DNA of 17,260 nt, from positions 1-17,260 of the forward strand of contig JAGUYV010000454.1 of the NCBI GenBank assembly GCA_020061125.1, read 5' to 3'. The notes below the pieces were generated by a model, which saw only the letters and a list, made by a program, of their open reading frames with translations, made no database searches and was not told the DNA's origin. Position numbers and translations under genes: made by a program. Origin of the DNA: a bacterium. GTDB taxonomy: Bacteria; UBP15; UBA6099; DSWB01. Below are positions 2,169 through 15,303 of the stretch, piece by piece. The stretch's first letter is position 1. Each line of letters starts with the position of its first letter.

Positions 2169-2441
2169 CTTCCAATGAAAATTGTTCACACGCGTTGTGT
2201 CCTTTTATTCGACGGATTCAACGGTTTCGCCCCCGATCCTTAAACCTTCGAAAATTCGCAATGAACCTGGCTCACGCGGAGCGCCAAAGAGCTTCACCGG
2301 CTTTGATTTTCCTAAAAACCGCAATAGAACGCTCTCTTTAGTCCGTTGATCACGGCGAAGCGCAATAATTGTTACAGATTATATAGCTAAAGATGTATAT
2401 GTCGTTCCTTATTCGGTCCTTTCCAAGAATGGCCGAAATCA

Positions 2442-2481
2442 GACAAACCTGTTTGCAGAGCACAGAAATCAACGGTTTGTC
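2442..2481. repeat. 8-bp perfect inverted repeat in the AT-rich gap
   Basis: GACAAACC (2442-2449) is the exact reverse complement of GGTTTGTC (2474-2481), separated by 24 bases. The left arm also sits in CAAAC-CT-GTTTG (2444-2455). No T-tract follows on either strand, so it does not read as a terminator. Confidence 0.4.
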
Positions 2482-2571
2482 AGGGCAAATTTCAGGGTTT
2501 TGCGGGTCTGCGGCGCACGCCTGACAGGTGTTCACACCCGGAAAATGGACAGATTCACAACATGAGGGTTG

Positions 2572-2602
2572 TTGAAAACCGGCCTGCTATCCATGCTATG
2601 AT
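2572..2602 (+). promoter_or_regulatory. Candidate sigma70 promoter with extended -10 inside the gap
   Basis: TTGAAA (2572-2577) and TATGAT (2597-2602) are each one mismatch from consensus. The 19-base spacer is long, but TGC directly before the -10 supplies an extended -10. A transcript would begin near 2609 and run into the hairpin region with no clear gene to express. Confidence 0.4.
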
Positions 2603-2675
2603 ATCGCAGAGGCGACCGCAGATGAAGTTTTTATGATAATACTTTATAAATTAGGATATTTATCAGATAGAGCAA

Positions 2676-2737
2676 AAACATTGCTTTATTGCGAATAAAG
2701 ACAAGGCTTTTATTGACAATGTTTATTGCGGCAAGGC
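2676..2737. repeat. Nested inverted repeat with 9-bp direct repeat
   Basis: CTTTATT-GCG-AATAAAG (2684-2700) is a perfect 7-bp hairpin with a 3-base loop. An outer pair AAACATTG (2676-2683) and CAATGTTT (2717-2724) encloses it and an extra 16 bases. TTTATTGCG occurs at 2685-2693 and again at 2722-2730, each followed by CAAGGC (2702-2707 and 2732-2737). The arrangement resembles a partial duplication. Confidence 0.4.
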
Positions 2738-3105
2738 GAAAAAGGCGACGCCGGCATGAAGCACACTTCGCATCCACGCTTTTTACGTTGTAGAGCCACA
2801 TTTGAAGTATCCGGTACAGGAACAAATTGTAGTATGGTATTCTTCTGCAAAGAACAAATTGATCGTAAATTCATAACGCGCATTATTCGTCAAGAGCACA
2901 ATAATTTCGTTCACGATTTTGCCAGCATAGGCAGGAGCTGGTTAAATGTATAGTACAAAATGGGTGAACAAAATAATTCGGCTCAGTTTTTGGCCTGAAG
3001 TCTCAAAAATCAAGGGGCAGGCAACAGCATTATTGAAAACAAGAAGAATCAACCATTTTTGATAAACCAGAAGAAGGATGGTTTTGAGATCTCGTTCTTG
3101 ATACT

Positions 3106-3131
3106 GCTCAATTGATGAGCTTAAGTTTTTT
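3106..3131 (+). terminator. Weak + strand terminator candidate overlapping the TPR gene end
   Basis: GCTCA (3106-3110) and TGAGC (3116-3120) form a 5-bp stem with a 5-base loop. TTAAG and then a run of six T follow on the + strand. It would stop transcripts leaving the AT-rich gap. The short stem and interrupted T-tract make this uncertain, and it overlaps the coding end of the opposite-strand gene. Confidence 0.25.
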
Positions 3132-5638: not shown

Positions 5639-6172
5639 ATGAAAATCGGGATTGGAGGATCCGAAATCGAGCTTATACAGGGCGATATCACCGCGCTTGC
5701 CGTGGATGCGATTGTGAATGCCGCCAATGCGTCGCTGATCCTGGGCGGAGGCGTGGCGGGCGCCATCAGGTCCAAAGGCGGGCCACGCATCCAGGAAGAA
5801 TGCGACCGCATCGGCGGAACATTTGTGGGCGGAGCGGTCATCACCACGGGCGGCAGCCTCCCGGCCCGGCATGTGATTCACGCCGTCGGTCCGCGCTGGG
5901 GCGAGGGCGATGAGGAAAACAAGCTCCGAAACGCAATCACGAACAGCCTGAAAGCCGCTGACCGGAACGAACTCGAATCCATCGCGTTTCCGGCCATCAG
6001 CACGGGCATATTCGGGTTTCCGCTGGCGCCCGCCGCGCGCATCATGCTGGGCGCGGCGCGGGATTATCTGCAAGAGCGAACCGGCTTGCGCCGTGTGATT
6101 TTCTGCCTCTATAGCAGGGGCGATTACGATGTCTTCGAGAAGACTCTGCGGGAATTGACGGACCGCGCGTGA
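5639..6172 (+). CDS. Macro-domain protein, ADP-ribose/O-acetyl-ADP-ribose binding
   Basis: A 177-residue stand-alone macro domain. Members bind ADP-ribose, and many remove ADP-ribose from proteins or hydrolyse O-acetyl-ADP-ribose in the cytoplasm. Motifs are QGDIT (14-18, with the adenine-contacting Asp16), the ribose loop VNAAN (26-30), the phosphate loop GGGVAGAI (36-43) and STGIFGFP (121-128). GGGVAGAIRSKGG followed by IQEEC resembles the AF1521-like class more than the MacroD/YmdB type (GGGGVDGAIH), so the catalytic activity is uncertain. ATG 5639 follows an AAGGGGGGG site by about nine bases. An upstream in-frame start would place the -10 box inside the coding sequence. Two genes follow at 25 and 18 bases, probably in one operon. 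Confidence 0.9.
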   Translation: MKIGIGGSEIELIQGDITALAVDAIVNAANASLILGGGVAGAIRSKGGPRIQEECDRIGGTFVGGAVITTGGSLPARHVIHAVGPRWGEGDEENKLRNAITNSLKAADRNELESIAFPAISTGIFGFPLAPAARIMLGAARDYLQERTGLRRVIFCLYSRGDYDVFEKTLRELTDRA

Positions 6173-6197
6173 GCGCGGCACGGAGATACGATTGCCT

Positions 6198-6776
6198 ATG
6201 GCCAGAAAGAAACCTGCGAGAAAAACGCCCTACCGACCGCCGCCCCGGCCCGTGTCCCGGAGCCTGGATCCGCGTAAGCATGTGCGCGCCGCGGACCGCC
6301 GGACCCGCAAACGGGGCCTCGGGCTTACCTTCGAGGACATCAAGGTTCCGGTCTATGTCATCGCGGCCGCAACCGTGATCGCGGCCCTGTATTTTTTTGT
6401 CGGCCGTCCGCTTCTCGGCCCCACGGCGCAGAAGCGCGCATTCGAGAAATGCTTCGAGCGCATGCGCGATGTGCGCATCGCCATGGAGCAGAATTTCGAA
6501 GCCGAAAACAGCTATTCCGTCATGGGCCTGTACCGGCACATGAAGAAACCCACGGACATAGATGTAGAGGCGTTCGTGGATGAAGCGTGCAGCGGGCGCG
6601 GCAAAGAGGAGTGGACCCTGCTCGACGACATCGAAGTCAGCGAAAGGTCCTATCGCATTCACGGCGTGGCGCCCACCAGCCCGCCGTGCCCCATCGTCAT
6701 GACCAAGTCCTCGTACTGGCCCCTCGAATACGCCGGGTGCGGGGAGCCGCCGCCCGCGAGCCTGCTTAAAGAGTGA
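6198..6776 (+). CDS. Membrane-anchored protein with a pilin-like outer domain
   Basis: 192 residues, family not recognised. Residues 1-48 are strongly basic and proline-rich (cytoplasmic by the positive-inside rule). Residues 49-68 form one membrane helix (VPVYVIAAATVIAALYFFVG). The remaining 124 residues would be outside the membrane. That part resembles a type IV pilin or pseudopilin head: an amphipathic helix, NFEAENSYS (99-107), then YRIHGVA, and a C-terminal pair of cysteines in PPCPIVM and YAGCGE. The classical prepilin cleavage signal (G-F-T-L-I-E) is absent, so it would not be processed as a pilin. Four cysteines (85, 131, 164, 181) could form two disulfides. The start is ambiguous: TTG 6192 is six bases from GGAG (6182-6185), whereas ATG 6198 is twelve. 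It sits between the macro and VWA genes. Confidence 0.75.
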   Translation: MARKKPARKTPYRPPPRPVSRSLDPRKHVRAADRRTRKRGLGLTFEDIKVPVYVIAAATVIAALYFFVGRPLLGPTAQKRAFEKCFERMRDVRIAMEQNFEAENSYSVMGLYRHMKKPTDIDVEAFVDEACSGRGKEEWTLLDDIEVSERSYRIHGVAPTSPPCPIVMTKSSYWPLEYAGCGEPPPASLLKE

Positions 6777-6794: not shown

Positions 6795-8027
6795 GTGTTT
6801 GAAGGGTTTTTTTATGAACTCAAACGCAAGGGCGTGCCCGTGTCGCTCACCGAATGGATGACCCTGCAGCAGGCGCTCGCCCACGGGCTGATGAACAGCA
6901 GCCTGAACACATTCTACAGCCTTGCGCGCGCCATGCTCGTAAAAAACGAAGCGCATTTTGACCGGTATGATCGCGCGTTCTCCGAGTATTTCCGCGGCAT
7001 CGAAACCCCGGACCAGGTTCTGGAAAAGATTCTCGAAGGCCTGGAGCGCACCCAGGCTCTGGATCTTGATGAACTCGCCAGAGCGCAGATCCCGGAGCTG
7101 TCGCTGGACAAGGTGCTGGAAAATTTCTGGGAGCAGTACCGGGAGGGGCATTACCGGCAGCACCGCGGCGGCGACCGCGCCATCGGCACGGGCGGACGCA
7201 GCACGCAGGGCGCATTCGGCTACAATCCCGCGGGGATTCGCGTGGGGCAGAGCGGGGGCCGCCATGGAAGCGCCATCCAGATCGCCGAACAGCGCCGGTT
7301 CAGAAACTACGACCCGGACCTGGTGCTGGACACGCGCCAGATCCGCGTGGCCCTGTCGCGCCTGCGCACCCTGCTGCCGCGCGGCCCCGAGGACGAGCTT
7401 GATGTGGATGTGACCATAGACAAAACCTGCCGCAACGCCGGGGATCTCGAGCTTGTGTGGAAGCGAAGCCGCAAGAACACCGTCAAGCTCCTGCTGCTCA
7501 TGGACACCGGCGGCTCCATGGCGCCGTACGCGCGCCTGGTCAGCCGCCTGTTCAGCGCCGCGCGCTCCCAGTTCAGGGATCTCAAATATTACTATTTTCA
7601 CAATTGCGTCTACGATACGGTCTGGAAGAACATGGAGGAGAACGAGGAGATTTCCCTCGAAGAACTTATGCGCACCCTGGACGGGGATTACAAAGTGATC
7701 CTGGCCGGGGACGCGACCATGGCGCCCAGCGAATTGCTGGATCGCAACGGCTGCATTGATTTCTTTCAATATAACGATGTACCTGGCGTGTGGCGGCTGT
7801 ACCAGATCGCGCACAAGTGGCCGTCGAGCGTGTGGCTCAATCCCGAGCCGCAGCGGTTCTGGGTGAGCGTGACCGCGCGCATCATTGGCCGCATTTTTCC
7901 CATGTACGGCCTCACCCTCAATGGCCTGGACGATGCGGTGCGCGCCCTGCTGCGCACCCGGCTGCAAGGCGTGTCCCATGCGGACATCAAGGAAATTCTG
8001 GACCGCCGCATGAGTCCCTACAGGTGA
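6795..8027 (+). CDS. CoxE-like VWA-domain protein
   Basis: A 410-residue cytoplasmic protein of the family annotated as VWA-containing CoxE-like. Family landmarks include the N-terminal helical part (PVSLTEWMTLQQAL), a Gly/Arg-rich middle (about 124-160), and the VWA fold from about 230. The metal-ion site motif is DTGGSM (237-242), where D237, G239 and S241 replace the usual DxSxS. Then come YYYFHNCVYDTVW (265-277), AGDATMAPSELL around D306, and a C-terminal WLNPEPQRFW...IFPMYGLTLNGL signature. VWA proteins of this group typically act with a MoxR-type AAA+ ATPase in metal insertion or complex remodelling, but no such ATPase is present here. GTG 6795 is chosen because AAGGAGAA ends a few bases before it. 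It lies 18 bases after the pilin-like gene and stops 12 bases before a convergent gene. Confidence 0.88.
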   Translation: MFEGFFYELKRKGVPVSLTEWMTLQQALAHGLMNSSLNTFYSLARAMLVKNEAHFDRYDRAFSEYFRGIETPDQVLEKILEGLERTQALDLDELARAQIPELSLDKVLENFWEQYREGHYRQHRGGDRAIGTGGRSTQGAFGYNPAGIRVGQSGGRHGSAIQIAEQRRFRNYDPDLVLDTRQIRVALSRLRTLLPRGPEDELDVDVTIDKTCRNAGDLELVWKRSRKNTVKLLLLMDTGGSMAPYARLVSRLFSAARSQFRDLKYYYFHNCVYDTVWKNMEENEEISLEELMRTLDGDYKVILAGDATMAPSELLDRNGCIDFFQYNDVPGVWRLYQIAHKWPSSVWLNPEPQRFWVSVTARIIGRIFPMYGLTLNGLDDAVRALLRTRLQGVSHADIKEILDRRMSPYR

Positions 8028-8039
8028 GTACGGCGCGGA

Positions 8040-9143
8040 TTATTTCACGCTGTACCCGCGATTCACCGATTTCACCCTCGTGAACAGCGACGCATCCCAC
8101 AGCTTAAGTTCCGTCATGTTCGGGCTGGCCTGCGACAAAGTCAGGAAAACGAATTCAAGCTCTCCGCTGGGGTTCGGCTCCATGGCGGTCAATGGCACGG
8201 AAACCTCGAGGGTATTGCCGTCGCTCACGCAGGTGGCGGATGTGGCGTCCGCGTCCAGTGTTGCGCCGCCCGCGACCTGGTAAATCGTGCATTCTCGGAA
8301 CAGCGACGGGATGGCGAAGATCACTGCGCCGCCCTGTTTCAAAATGGCGTCCAGGCCGCGCTCGAGCGTGGCCTTGTCCGGATTCAGCCACCCGGCCACA
8401 TAGAACTGGAGGTTCGGCGGCGAAATCGTGCCGTGGGTCACCTCGCCCTTGAATCGCGCTTTCAGGCGCACCCGTCCGTCTCCGAACGCCACATGCCCGT
8501 ACTGGAAATCCAGGGACTTGGCGATGGCGATGCGTTCATCTTCGTAGGATATGGCGTCGTGTTCCGAAACCGAAAGCGGGAACACGCAATCGTAAGGAAA
8601 GCGGAGAGCGCACAGCGCGGGCGAAATGTCGCCTTCACATGCTGCGGGAGGGCCTTCGGGCATGGGCGTGAATCCGCTCTGCTCACATGCCGCTTCCACA
8701 TACAGCTCATCGGTCACGCTCACGGCCTTGATTCCGAAGAGCACATCGGTTCCAGCGGGCTGGCCCGGGATCTGGCCCGACCACTTGCGGTCATCGCCCG
8801 GCGCGCGGGTCATGTCCGCGCGGGACCATGTGGCGCCGCCGTCCGTGGTGTACAGAATCGAGGCTTCGAAAACCGGCGCGTTGCGCGATCGGCCCACCGC
8901 GAAAATGCGTGCGGTCACGGTTACCGGCTCACCGTCCTGCGGTTCACTGGGCGAAAATTCCACATCGTGCGCCACGGGCGGCATGCGCTCGTCCACAAGT
9001 TCCTTCAAATCGAGGATCAAATCATCGGGCAGGCCGAGCTGCCGCAATGATTCCAGGGGGCTTTGCTGCGCCGCGGCGGGGAATGCGGCACACACGGCAA
9101 AACCAAGAACCAGCATTGTCAGCAGTGCAATGCGCCTCATCAT
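8040..9143 (-). CDS. Exported protein with an Ig-like domain, function unknown
   Basis: A 367-residue protein with a clear signal peptide (MMRRIALLTM, hydrophobic core, cleavage near AAAQQ at 25). A helical segment (LESLRQLGLPDDLILDLKELV) is followed by an Ig/fibronectin-like beta domain around 57-150, containing the typical YTTDGGATWSRADM strand. After a Cys-containing linker (cysteines near 153, 169, 178 and 186) comes a second beta-rich region (about 195-367) with KSLDFQYGHVAFGDGRV and a C-terminal VSVPLTAMEPNPSGELEFVFLT. The latter could be a ligand- or carbohydrate-binding sandwich, but I cannot name the family. AGGAGGAG lies just upstream of two adjacent ATG codons. It is convergent with the VWA gene, 12 bases apart, with no terminator between them that I can see. 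Confidence 0.82.
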   Translation of the reverse strand: MMRRIALLTMLVLGFAVCAAFPAAAQQSPLESLRQLGLPDDLILDLKELVDERMPPVAHDVEFSPSEPQDGEPVTVTARIFAVGRSRNAPVFEASILYTTDGGATWSRADMTRAPGDDRKWSGQIPGQPAGTDVLFGIKAVSVTDELYVEAACEQSGFTPMPEGPPAACEGDISPALCALRFPYDCVFPLSVSEHDAISYEDERIAIAKSLDFQYGHVAFGDGRVRLKARFKGEVTHGTISPPNLQFYVAGWLNPDKATLERGLDAILKQGGAVIFAIPSLFRECTIYQVAGGATLDADATSATCVSDGNTLEVSVPLTAMEPNPSGELEFVFLTLSQASPNMTELKLWDASLFTRVKSVNRGYSVK

Positions 9144-12487: not shown

Positions 12488-13261
12488 TCAGATGACCTTG
12501 GCTTCCTCGCGGAGGGCCTTGACCACTTTGGGCACGATGTCCGCGGGATCACCCTCGAACTTTTTGCCTTCGGCGCGAGCCGGGGGCGGGTTGAGGGCCG
12601 CGATTTCGGTTTTGGCGTCGGCGCCGGCCAGGCCGATGTCGCCGCCGGCCTTGACTTCGAGGGGTTTCTTTTTGGCTTTCATGATGCCGGGCAGGCTGGG
12701 GTAGCGAGGCTCGTTGAGGCCCTTGGTGCAGGTGATGACCGCAGGGAGCGGGCATTCCACGGTCTCTTCGCCGCCCTCGATTTCGCGGGTGGCCGTGAGC
12801 TTGCCGTCCGCCACCGCGAGCTTAAGCACCACATTCACGCAGGGGATGCCCATGAGCTGGGCTACCATGGGGCCGACGGCCGCGCTGTCGTCGTCCGAGG
12901 CCTGTTTGCCGCAGAGGATGAGATCCGCGCCGATGCTCTTGGCCGCGGACGCCAGGGCTGCAGCCACCGACGCCGGGTCCGAGAGGCTGATGGCCGCGTC
13001 TTCGATGCGCATGGCTTTGTCCGCGCCCATGGCCAGAGCGGTTCGCACGGCTTCCTCGGCCTTTTTCTCGCCCACCGTTACGATGGTCACTTCTTCGGCC
13101 ACTTTGGCTTCCTTGAGCTTGATGGCCTCTTCCACCGCGAACTCGTCGTAGGGGTTCAGCACCATGGCCAGCCCTTCGCGATCGATGTCCTTGGCTTCGG
13201 ATTTGACTTTGATTTTTGCTTCTGTGTCGGGTACCTGTTTCACCAAGCAGATGATCTTCAA
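12488..13261 (-). CDS. etfB: Electron transfer flavoprotein, beta subunit
   Basis: A 257-residue partner of EtfA. Members bind AMP and dock dehydrogenases. Motifs are MKIICLVKQVPDTEAKIKV (1-19), LNPYDEFAVEEAIKLKE (35-51), the nucleotide segment LCGKQASDDDSAAVGPM (116-132), and the dehydrogenase recognition loop EPRYPSLPGIMKAKKKP (184-200), which closely follows the mammalian loop. The frame stays open far upstream, but there is no family sequence there. The start is TTG at 13261, seven bases after GGAGG, which makes the canonical MKIICLVKQ N-terminus. The upstream region carries a perfect TTGACA. First gene of the ETF cluster. Confidence 0.95.
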   Translation of the reverse strand: MKIICLVKQVPDTEAKIKVKSEAKDIDREGLAMVLNPYDEFAVEEAIKLKEAKVAEEVTIVTVGEKKAEEAVRTALAMGADKAMRIEDAAISLSDPASVAAALASAAKSIGADLILCGKQASDDDSAAVGPMVAQLMGIPCVNVVLKLAVADGKLTATREIEGGEETVECPLPAVITCTKGLNEPRYPSLPGIMKAKKKPLEVKAGGDIGLAGADAKTEIAALNPPPARAEGKKFEGDPADIVPKVVKALREEAKVI

Positions 13262-13442
13262 AACTATCCCTCCTTTATGGTGTATCTTGGATTCAGAGCG
13301 GCAATCGCGGGCCGCGCGGCGCGGACGGCCCGGGATATGCGGTAAAGCGCGTGCTGTTCCTCCCTGGAGCGTTGTGACCCGTGCTTTGGGTGGATTGCGG
13401 CCTGTTTTCCGCCGCACATTGTGAACAATAGCACATAGTAGC

Positions 13443-13726: not shown

Positions 13727-13781
13727 GCTGATATGTCCAAGATTTCAGTCGTCAAATTTTTGCCCGCGGGGGGTGCGCGCC

Positions 13782-14630
13782 ATGCATTCCAATATCCAGG
13801 AATTGTCGGACAACACCATCGGCCAGTTGGCGGACAAAGAGTTCGCGCTCGTGGTGTTCACCGTAGACTGGGCCGTGAGCTGCAAGGTCCAGTTGACCAT
13901 GGTGGACAATGTGCAAAAGGCATTCGGAGACCGCGTATTTTTCGGTTTTGCGGAAATATCCGAATCGCCAAAAATCAGAGAAAGGTACAAAATAGAAGAA
14001 TATCCAACAATTATCGTTTTCAAAAACGGCCGGGAGATCCAGAGATTCACGGGAATCCAGCGGGGCAAATGGCTCGCTGATTTCCTGAATACGGCCACGG
14101 GCATGTTTGATGCAGGCACGGATTTCCGAGCTATGTGGAACAATCTCCGGGACAGGGAAACCGAAGAAAAGCTCTTTGCGCGAACCATCCTCATTGTGGA
14201 CAGCGATCCGGACACCAGTTTTTGTATCCGCACCATCCTCGAAGAATCGGGATACAAAAACATTGCCCTGGCGTCCAACTACGACGACAGCGTCAGCAGC
14301 CTGGAGAATCAGATCCCGGACCTCATCTTTTTGAACTTGAAAATGGCGAACAAGGACGGGTTCCGGTTGATGAAGACGCTGCGCAAGTCCCGCGCTTGGA
14401 GCGGCATCCCGCTTTTGGTGTCCGTGGGACCGGGGAAATCTTCGCAGGATTATGAGGAAGCTTTCGGGGATTCGAGCATTCTGCGGCAGGGCAAATATGT
14501 GGAGCAGCCGCGCAACCGGGCCTCGTTCACCGGGCTGGTGCGGCACATGCTGCTGTTGCATGAAAACCGGCCCGGCGAGCAGCCCGCCCTGGCCGTGAGC
14601 AGTTACTGCCCGGTGGAGCCGAAGCTGTGA
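13782..14630 (+). CDS. Thioredoxin-like domain fused to a degenerate receiver domain
   Basis: A 282-residue cytoplasmic protein with two recognisable parts. Residues about 1-110 have a thioredoxin fold: FALVVFTVDWAVSCK (21-35) and the cis-proline segment IEEYPTIIVFKNGREI (71-86). The usual WCxxC is WAVSC (30-34), so the first catalytic Cys is Ala and disulfide exchange is unlikely. Residues about 135-260 resemble a response-regulator receiver: ILIVDSDPD (137-144) keeps the acidic pocket, but the phospho-acceptor position in IFLNLKMANKDGF is Asn185, and the conserved Lys before Pro is Gln242. It therefore looks like a phosphorylation-dead pseudo-receiver, and a binding or scaffold role is the natural inference. 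ATG 13782 follows a G-rich stretch; GTG 13773 is an alternative. It is convergent with a PAS-only gene. Confidence 0.82.
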   Translation: MHSNIQELSDNTIGQLADKEFALVVFTVDWAVSCKVQLTMVDNVQKAFGDRVFFGFAEISESPKIRERYKIEEYPTIIVFKNGREIQRFTGIQRGKWLADFLNTATGMFDAGTDFRAMWNNLRDRETEEKLFARTILIVDSDPDTSFCIRTILEESGYKNIALASNYDDSVSSLENQIPDLIFLNLKMANKDGFRLMKTLRKSRAWSGIPLLVSVGPGKSSQDYEEAFGDSSILRQGKYVEQPRNRASFTGLVRHMLLLHENRPGEQPALAVSSYCPVEPKL

Positions 14631-14634
14631 CACG

Positions 14635-14667
14635 AAAAAATCTCCGGCCGGTTGGCGCCGGCCGGAG
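14635..14667 (-). terminator. Rho-independent terminator of the PAS gene
   Basis: CTCCGGCCGG (14642-14651) and CCGGCCGGAG (14658-14667) form a perfect 10-bp stem with a 6-base loop. Read on the minus strand the stem is followed by A and then six T (14640-14635). The + side has no T-run. It is therefore oriented for the PAS gene and lies in the convergent gap. Confidence 0.85.
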
Positions 14668-14729
14668 CAACAAGAGAAAGGGTATGTTTGCCATGGCCCC
14701 GGGGGCGGGGCGCGAAGCAATCTGTTTAT

Positions 14730-15182
14730 TCAATACGACAGGTTGTTGCGTTCCAGCGCCAGGGCGTTCTTCATGCGCTGCTCCTCGGTGACATCCGTGA
14801 CCAGAGCGGCGACCACGCCGGGCCGCGGCCCCGCGGCCTGGAACGACAGCCATTTCCGCACCGAGCCTTCGGCGTACTCCACGATGGTGTCCGCCTGGCC
14901 GGTGCGGGCGATTTTGGCCAGCGCCTTAATCCACTTGAAATCCCAGGTGTGAATGCCGGGCAGGATGGCGGTGATGCGCCGTCCCTCGATATCTTCAAGT
15001 TTTTTACCGAGAATTTCCGCGAACGCGGCGTTCGCGTCAATCACGGCCAGGTCCTCGGCTTTCCCATCTTCTCCCAGAATGACTTCAAACACGGCGAAAC
15101 CCGCGTCCATGCCGTGCAGGATATCCTTGTATGTCTGCAGATCCAGAGTCTGGTTTCCGGGTGCGATGTCCGTGGCGCTCAT
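14730..15182 (-). CDS. Stand-alone PAS-domain protein
   Basis: 150 residues, essentially one PAS sensor domain (about 16-133). Features are YKDILHGMDAGFAVFEVI (18-35), the PAS core AVIDANAAFAEILGKKLEDIEGRRI (46-70), and the closing strand plus linker VAALVTDVTEEQRMKNALALERNNL (124-148). That ending is the usual junction leading from PAS into a kinase, cyclase or chemoreceptor module, yet the protein stops two residues later. The terminator downstream shows that this is the real gene end. No ligand can be assigned. The start is ATG 15182, nine bases after GGGAGG. An upstream in-frame ATG would run through the palindrome and lacks a ribosome-binding site. It is divergent from the AI-2E transporter gene and convergent with the thioredoxin/pseudo-receiver gene. 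Confidence 0.85.
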   Translation of the reverse strand: MSATDIAPGNQTLDLQTYKDILHGMDAGFAVFEVILGEDGKAEDLAVIDANAAFAEILGKKLEDIEGRRITAILPGIHTWDFKWIKALAKIARTGQADTIVEYAEGSVRKWLSFQAAGPRPGVVAALVTDVTEEQRMKNALALERNNLSY

Positions 15183-15203
15183 TTGATAATTCCTCCCATT
15201 GGC

Positions 15204-15219
15204 CGCGCAAATTTGCGCG
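15204..15219. promoter_or_regulatory. Perfect 16-bp palindrome, candidate operator
   Basis: CGCGCAAATTTGCGCG is self-complementary over all 16 bases and sits 21 bases upstream of the PAS gene start, in the spacer shared with the AI-2E transporter gene. It has no loop and no T-tract, so a dimeric regulator binding site is likelier than a terminator. Confidence 0.45.
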
Positions 15220-15303
15220 ATGAAATGCGAACTCATGTATACAGCCCGATTCCGGCGCGCCGGGTTCCCGTATAGGACAAAAACATGGGACCGCGCGCCG
15301 ATA

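Follow-up and report, generated by a model that had tools for sequence, protein, structure and literature searches.

The window analysed here, a contig of 17,260 nucleotides, carries a plus-strand gene for a two-domain protein in which a thioredoxin-like domain is joined to a pseudo-receiver. The gene, its parts and its two neighbours are as follows:

13782-14630, plus strand: thioredoxin-like/pseudo-receiver fusion gene, 282 aa plus stop, open frame
13782-14099, plus strand: thioredoxin-like domain, residues 1-106 (Pfam, AlphaFold, Foldseek)
13869-13883, plus strand: WAVSC (residues 30-34), which replaces WCGPC, only Cys34 being retained (alignment)
14004-14006, plus strand: cis-Pro75 of the thioredoxin fold, in EEYPT (Pro in 50/50 relatives)
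14100-14180, plus strand: linker, residues 107-133, predicted to be mostly helical and to run straight into receiver strand 1 (pLDDT about 50-70, low)
14181-14567, plus strand: pseudo-receiver domain, residues 134-262 (Pfam, AlphaFold, Foldseek)
14196-14207, plus strand: V139-D140-S141-D142, with DD1 retained (D140) and DD2 replaced by Ser141 (DD2 is Asp in 29/29 receivers)
14334-14336, plus strand: Asn185 at the phospho-acceptor position (Asp in 29/29 relatives)
14424-14426, plus strand: Val215 at the conserved Thr/Ser position (Thr/Ser in 29/29 relatives)
14505-14507, plus strand: Gln242 at the conserved Lys position, VEQP versus LEKP (Lys in 29/29 relatives)
14568-14627, plus strand: C-terminal tail, residues 263-282, which includes Cys276 and is predicted to be largely disordered (AlphaFold)
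12488-13366, minus strand: ETF beta subunit, divergent neighbour, with ETF alpha and ETF-QO beyond (profile search)
14730-15236, minus strand: single PAS-domain protein of 168 aa without kinase or effector, convergent neighbour (Pfam)

The frame at 13782-14630 is open throughout, and an alternative start (GTG 13773, three codons upstream) would give a product of 285 aa. An earlier note on this DNA had described the frame as intact and its codon use as normal, in agreement with the CAI-like index (0.58 versus 0.58-0.85 in the window's other genes) and the GC3 value (0.72 versus 0.70-0.87) found here, both of which fall inside the window's range. Codon use and third-position GC reflect the recent coding history of the gene and are compatible with function or with early decay. 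Base composition differs between the halves, with GC 0.49 and GC3 0.66 in the thioredoxin half and GC 0.59 and GC3 0.80 in the receiver half. The gene is assigned to the plus strand because the profile matches lie there, and an antisense open frame of 322 codons (13752-14720, minus strand) is taken as a shadow of it. No Rfam match was found anywhere in the window.

The PAS-only protein ends in ...ALALERNNLSY, while a relative from the same order (L050:1121-1672) ends soon after ...ALSLERSFLKTVSY; this order may have a conserved type of short PAS protein that lacks a kinase. Elsewhere in the window, some 940 intergenic bases at 2169-3107 have a G+C content of ~0.42-0.43 versus about 0.6 around them, and contain no ORF of at least 80 codons except the ends of the neighbouring genes. 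Two predicted proteins without a Pfam match (6192-6776, plus strand, and 8040-9143, minus strand) flank a VWA/CoxE-like protein at 6795-8027, and the first of them is preceded by a macro-domain gene (5639-6172).

A profile search of each half, as proposed in the earlier note, placed both above the curated Pfam cut-offs, with scores well beyond what chance would give. The first half matches Thioredoxin (PF00085) over residues 16-103 (E 3.3e-11; 43.5 bits, cut-off 23.5), is modelled by AlphaFold as a complete thioredoxin fold with a domain core pLDDT of ~97, and superposes in Foldseek on thioredoxins with TM up to 0.92 at about 1.1 Å; by profile score, fold and cis-Pro75 it belongs to the Thioredoxin family. 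It falls well short of the thioredoxin equivalog TIGR01068 (about 46.3 bits versus a cut-off of 96.8), WAVSC having a single cysteine, and the fusion protein reaches none of the NCBIfam equivalogs. All residues named earlier (W30-A31-V32-S33-C34, cis-Pro75 in EEYPT, N185 and Q242) are in place, and the alignment agrees with the reading of WAVSC as an altered WCxxC. In comparison with 50 CxxC relatives, the first cysteine is A31, the motif proline S33, the buried Asp26 Val25 and Trp28 Thr27; Cys34 (the second cysteine of CxxC), cis-Pro75, Gly83 and Gly91 are retained. With its single cysteine, WAVSC excludes the CxxC dithiol mechanism for this half. The claim that the active site had been lost is thus correct as regards dithiol chemistry, but the site is partly left in the form of Cys34.

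Among the Foldseek matches of this half is E. coli YbbN (3qou), a protein that has SxxC and is not known to have reductase activity, and the half could be pictured as a chaperone-like holdase similar to CnoX/YbbN, in which the pseudo-receiver stands in place of the TPR domain. This is very unlikely, given that the match is confined to the thioredoxin domain, that the fusion lacks a TPR and, apart from the shared fold, is not related to YbbN in sequence, and that no chaperone genes lie near.

The second half matches Response_reg (PF00072) over residues 136-211 (E 1.1e-12; 48.5 bits, cut-off 30.2). AlphaFold models it as a complete receiver of alternating strands and helices, with pLDDT of at least 90 over residues 131-210 and lower values after 215, and Foldseek compares it with RR468 and CheY at TM 0.78-0.85 (RR468 0.84). 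Structure prediction, the other check proposed earlier, therefore supports both folds and identifies the second half as a receiver. In an alignment with 13 cellular and 16 viral-contig receivers (n=29), V139-D140-S141-D142 corresponds to V-D-D-E/D, with Ser141 at the second, Mg-binding acid position. The description of the receiver's acidic pocket as kept was overstated: D140 (DD1) remains, but the second acid, Asp in all 29 other sequences, is here replaced by Ser. The replacement of the phospho-Asp by Asn185 and of the conserved Lys by Gln242 was correctly recognised, both columns being invariant in the 29 receivers, and to these is added a loss that had gone unmentioned, that of the T/S position (Val215). 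One of the five catalytic residues of an active response regulator (DD, D, T/S, K) is retained and four are replaced, which bears out the loss of phosphotransfer chemistry. The half keeps G193, P243 and, in the switch region, Y239.

Pseudo-receivers (PsRs), which are common, are defined as domains recognised as PF00072 receivers that lack at least one of DD, D, T/S and K (PMC12632262). The half is a PsR by its PF00072 match and its replaced DD2, D, T/S and K, and with Asn185 where 29/29 relatives have Asp it is also an Asp-less receiver (ALR). Asn accounts for 16% of phospho-Asp replacements among ALRs, second to Glu, and may deamidate to Asp in such domains (PMC4395418); since DD2, T/S and K are also lost, deamidation of Asn185 would leave the receiver site unrestored. 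The parent of the pseudo-receiver gained no resolved placement in the receiver tree.

AlphaFold modelling, for which two separate alignments were used, one per half, yielded no confident interface between the thioredoxin and receiver halves (pTM 0.50-0.58); the models speak neither for nor against a complex of the two halves within the protein. The genome is a 513-contig draft of 79% completeness, in which an assembly or sequencing error might have joined two genes. That the fusion is such an artefact is nevertheless hardly credible: the gene is set well back from both ends of its 17-kb contig, its frame runs unbroken across 850 bases and includes a linker predicted to be helical, and no close copy of either half on its own was found elsewhere in the genome.

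The best match to the thioredoxin half within the phylum is a stand-alone protein of 131 residues from a genome of the same order (G001), 33% identical, in which the motif reads WGASC. Its gene and surroundings are:

L005:1465-1824, minus strand: stand-alone WGASC thioredoxin-like protein, same-order genome, no receiver domain
L084 (G001:C122), about 10281-18877: cluster of HdrA/B/C-like, DsrE-like, DUF1638, CGGC-domain and WGASC thioredoxin-like genes, the WGASC gene being divergent from a PAS sigma-54 activator

Like the fusion, the WGASC protein has lost the first cysteine, has Ser for the motif proline and has Asp26 replaced, and the two share NG[KR]EI[RQ]RF.G[LI]Q; unlike the fusion, it has no receiver and is encoded in a cluster with HdrB/C-like, DsrE-like, DUF1638 and CGGC genes. 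Trees built without the motif columns pair the two proteins (83/60 and 89/83). A third relative (G320) has WCAAC and Phe in place of Asp26, and with the active-site columns removed the window, WGASC and WCAAC proteins form one group (98/91), so that the window copy is not alone in having lost the first cysteine. In AU tests neither the WGASC nor the WCAAC relative is preferred as the nearer, and a canonical thioredoxin as sister is not rejected. The branch of the thioredoxin half is very long, at 3.6-5 changes per column, and its placements are for this reason tentative; with this reservation, sequence comparison places the half in a small atypical subfamily.

The G320 WCAAC gene is, as read from translations, also divergent from a PAS sigma-54 activator and is followed by a pyridine nucleotide-disulfide oxidoreductase-like gene. 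The genomic setting of these relatives suggests a thiol and redox context for the origin of the subfamily. DUF1638 of the G001 cluster was not found in the window's genome, so the thioredoxin half could not be traced to a matching cluster there. A related layout, in which a PAS sigma-54 activator and a thioredoxin-like gene diverge, occurs in another lineage (L190). Separately, positions 181-495 of NC_073930.1 / BK013625.1, records named ssRNA phage SRR5466337_2, resemble the thioredoxin half (24% identity, E 1e-7); a thioredoxin-like gene would be unexpected in such a phage, and the records may be chimeric assemblies.

Searches for a single protein with both halves found none in the seven genomes of the phylum set (none other from the same family), in 386 relatives, which were searched twice, once with a junction-spanning fragment, and with 6-9 candidates per genome scored, or among genome contigs, viral contigs, plasmids and phages, where the contig scans match near-exact peptides and the genome-contig scan reaches close relatives only. 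Nor does the available sequence at the etfBA operon of three same-order genomes (L026-L028; also L086) show a divergent thioredoxin-receiver gene. The fusion is rare or narrowly distributed, its absence from the searched genomes not meaning that it is unique. The view that the architecture has no named family is right in so far as no family in Pfam or NCBIfam spans it, but the domain types do have names, pseudo-receiver and ALR (PMC12632262; PMC4395418). No paper on a thioredoxin-receiver fusion was found among the open-licence papers searched. The dead-domain types are thus known but their combination is new, and it has been seen in a single genome to date.

Such a distribution would fit a lineage-restricted fusion under relaxed selection, two once-active modules that came together in one lineage and are decaying in a frame not yet broken. 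The missing fusion orthologue, the very long branch of the thioredoxin half, the different GC and GC3 of the halves and the scatter of replacements across both active sites are all in keeping with decay. However, the frame is open with codon use inside the window's range, both folds are predicted with high confidence, the structural residues cis-Pro75, Gly83, Gly91, G193 and P243 are retained, and the related stand-alone protein of the same order likewise lacks the first cysteine; on balance we regard decay as somewhat unlikely. The earlier note had gone further and proposed a conserved binding or scaffold role, not decay. The same-order WGASC relative speaks in part for that proposal, but the lack of a fusion orthologue, the WCAAC of the third group member and the very long branch speak against it. 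Moreover, an intact frame and normal codon use, on which the proposal was built, do not exclude recent relaxation and so do not establish a conserved role.

The retained cysteine admits a different function, that of a redox-sensing regulator without phosphorylation, in which Cys34 (perhaps together with Cys148/Cys276) would be oxidised or persulfidated and would thereby alter binding by the pseudo-receiver. A receiver fused to a thioredoxin-fold DsbA module is on record (PMC4395418). Cys34 is present in 52/52 thioredoxin relatives, the WGASC one included, and a thiol and Fe-S setting is provided by the HdrB/HdrC-like, DsrE-like and CGGC-domain genes beside the WGASC gene; a pyridine nucleotide-disulfide oxidoreductase-like gene lies beside that of the WCAAC relative. 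The second cysteine of CxxC is, however, usually buried and of low reactivity, and the window gene stands outside any thiol/Fe-S cluster like that of the WGASC protein. A one-cysteine thiol switch is thus an unlikely explanation.

We favour, at about even probability, the reading of the fusion as a functional cytosolic two-domain binding adaptor that is neither redox-active nor phosphorylated. This reading draws on the preservation of both folds while their chemistry has been lost, on the structural residues kept in both halves and on the existence of the WGASC relative. The thioredoxin-like half, with its fold and cis-Pro groove and no dithiol, would most likely bind a protein partner without reducing it; the Asp-less receiver would most likely dock, without phosphorylation and via the usual receiver surfaces, on a histidine kinase, another receiver or its own copy. 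In this way the fusion would hold a signalling protein together with a redox partner or a client of the thioredoxin type. We infer that the protein is functional and that each half binds something, and the identity of what is bound is likewise our inference.

Binding without redox chemistry is well established for the thioredoxin fold: Salmonella TrxA binds OmpR, PhoP and SsrB, and its binding to OmpR persists when Ala replaces both catalytic cysteines (PMC9584953). The fusion does not, however, have the TrxA docking station: in an alignment to TrxA made by eye, Ile73, Arg74, Gly75, Ile76, Gly93, Ala94 and Leu95 correspond to Ile71, Glu72, Glu73, Tyr74, Gly91, Ile92 and Gln93, with 2/7 residues retained. 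Change of TrxA Arg74/Gly75 to Asp abolished detectable OmpR binding (PMC9584953), and because the docking residues are mostly replaced a TrxA-type docking mode is not expected in the fusion. Against the adaptor reading as a whole are the lack of a fusion orthologue on which selection for binding could be gauged, the very long branch of the thioredoxin half, as expected of relaxed constraint or of a new function, and the models, which predict no confident interface between the halves. The more specific proposal of a permanent, signal-independent docking unit, formed by the fused halves and joining two-component proteins to a thioredoxin-type client in a phylum that has been little sampled, is improbable.

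Among known systems, CnoX/YbbN proteins resemble the fusion in combining a thioredoxin fold, an incomplete CxxC (in the E. coli form) and an extra C-terminal domain, but that domain is a TPR where the fusion has a receiver, so the fusion is not a CnoX/YbbN protein. In the TrxA-OmpR/PhoP/SsrB interactions a non-catalytic thioredoxin surface likewise binds response regulators, with the catalytic cysteines dispensable (PMC9584953); in contrast to the fusion, these are separate proteins that bind at the OmpR linker and C-terminal domain, and the docking residues Arg74, Gly75, Ala94 and Leu95 are not kept here. ALRs such as RitR share the PF00072 fold with catalytic residues replaced and Asn at the phospho-Asp position (PMC12632262; PMC4395418), although RitR and many ALRs have a DNA-binding output where the fusion has an N-terminal thioredoxin-like domain. 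Receivers joined to a part of the thioredoxin system are found in Mycobacterium and Heimdallarchaeota, where the partner is the enzyme thioredoxin reductase (PMC5847659) and not a thioredoxin-like domain as here. The Cys-ALR of Neptuniibacter caesariensis, which is joined to a DsbA module, is similarly an Asp-less receiver coupled to a thioredoxin-fold protein (PMC4395418), but its phospho-site is Cys and its partner of the DsbA family, whereas the fusion has Asn and a classical Thioredoxin-family domain without the first cysteine. With one known copy, the fusion is at present a curiosity and not a family. A 2025 review gives the switching of bacterial pseudo-receivers as unknown (PMC12632262). 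Having the two dead domains naturally combined, the protein would be a compact object for testing each fold as a pure binding module.
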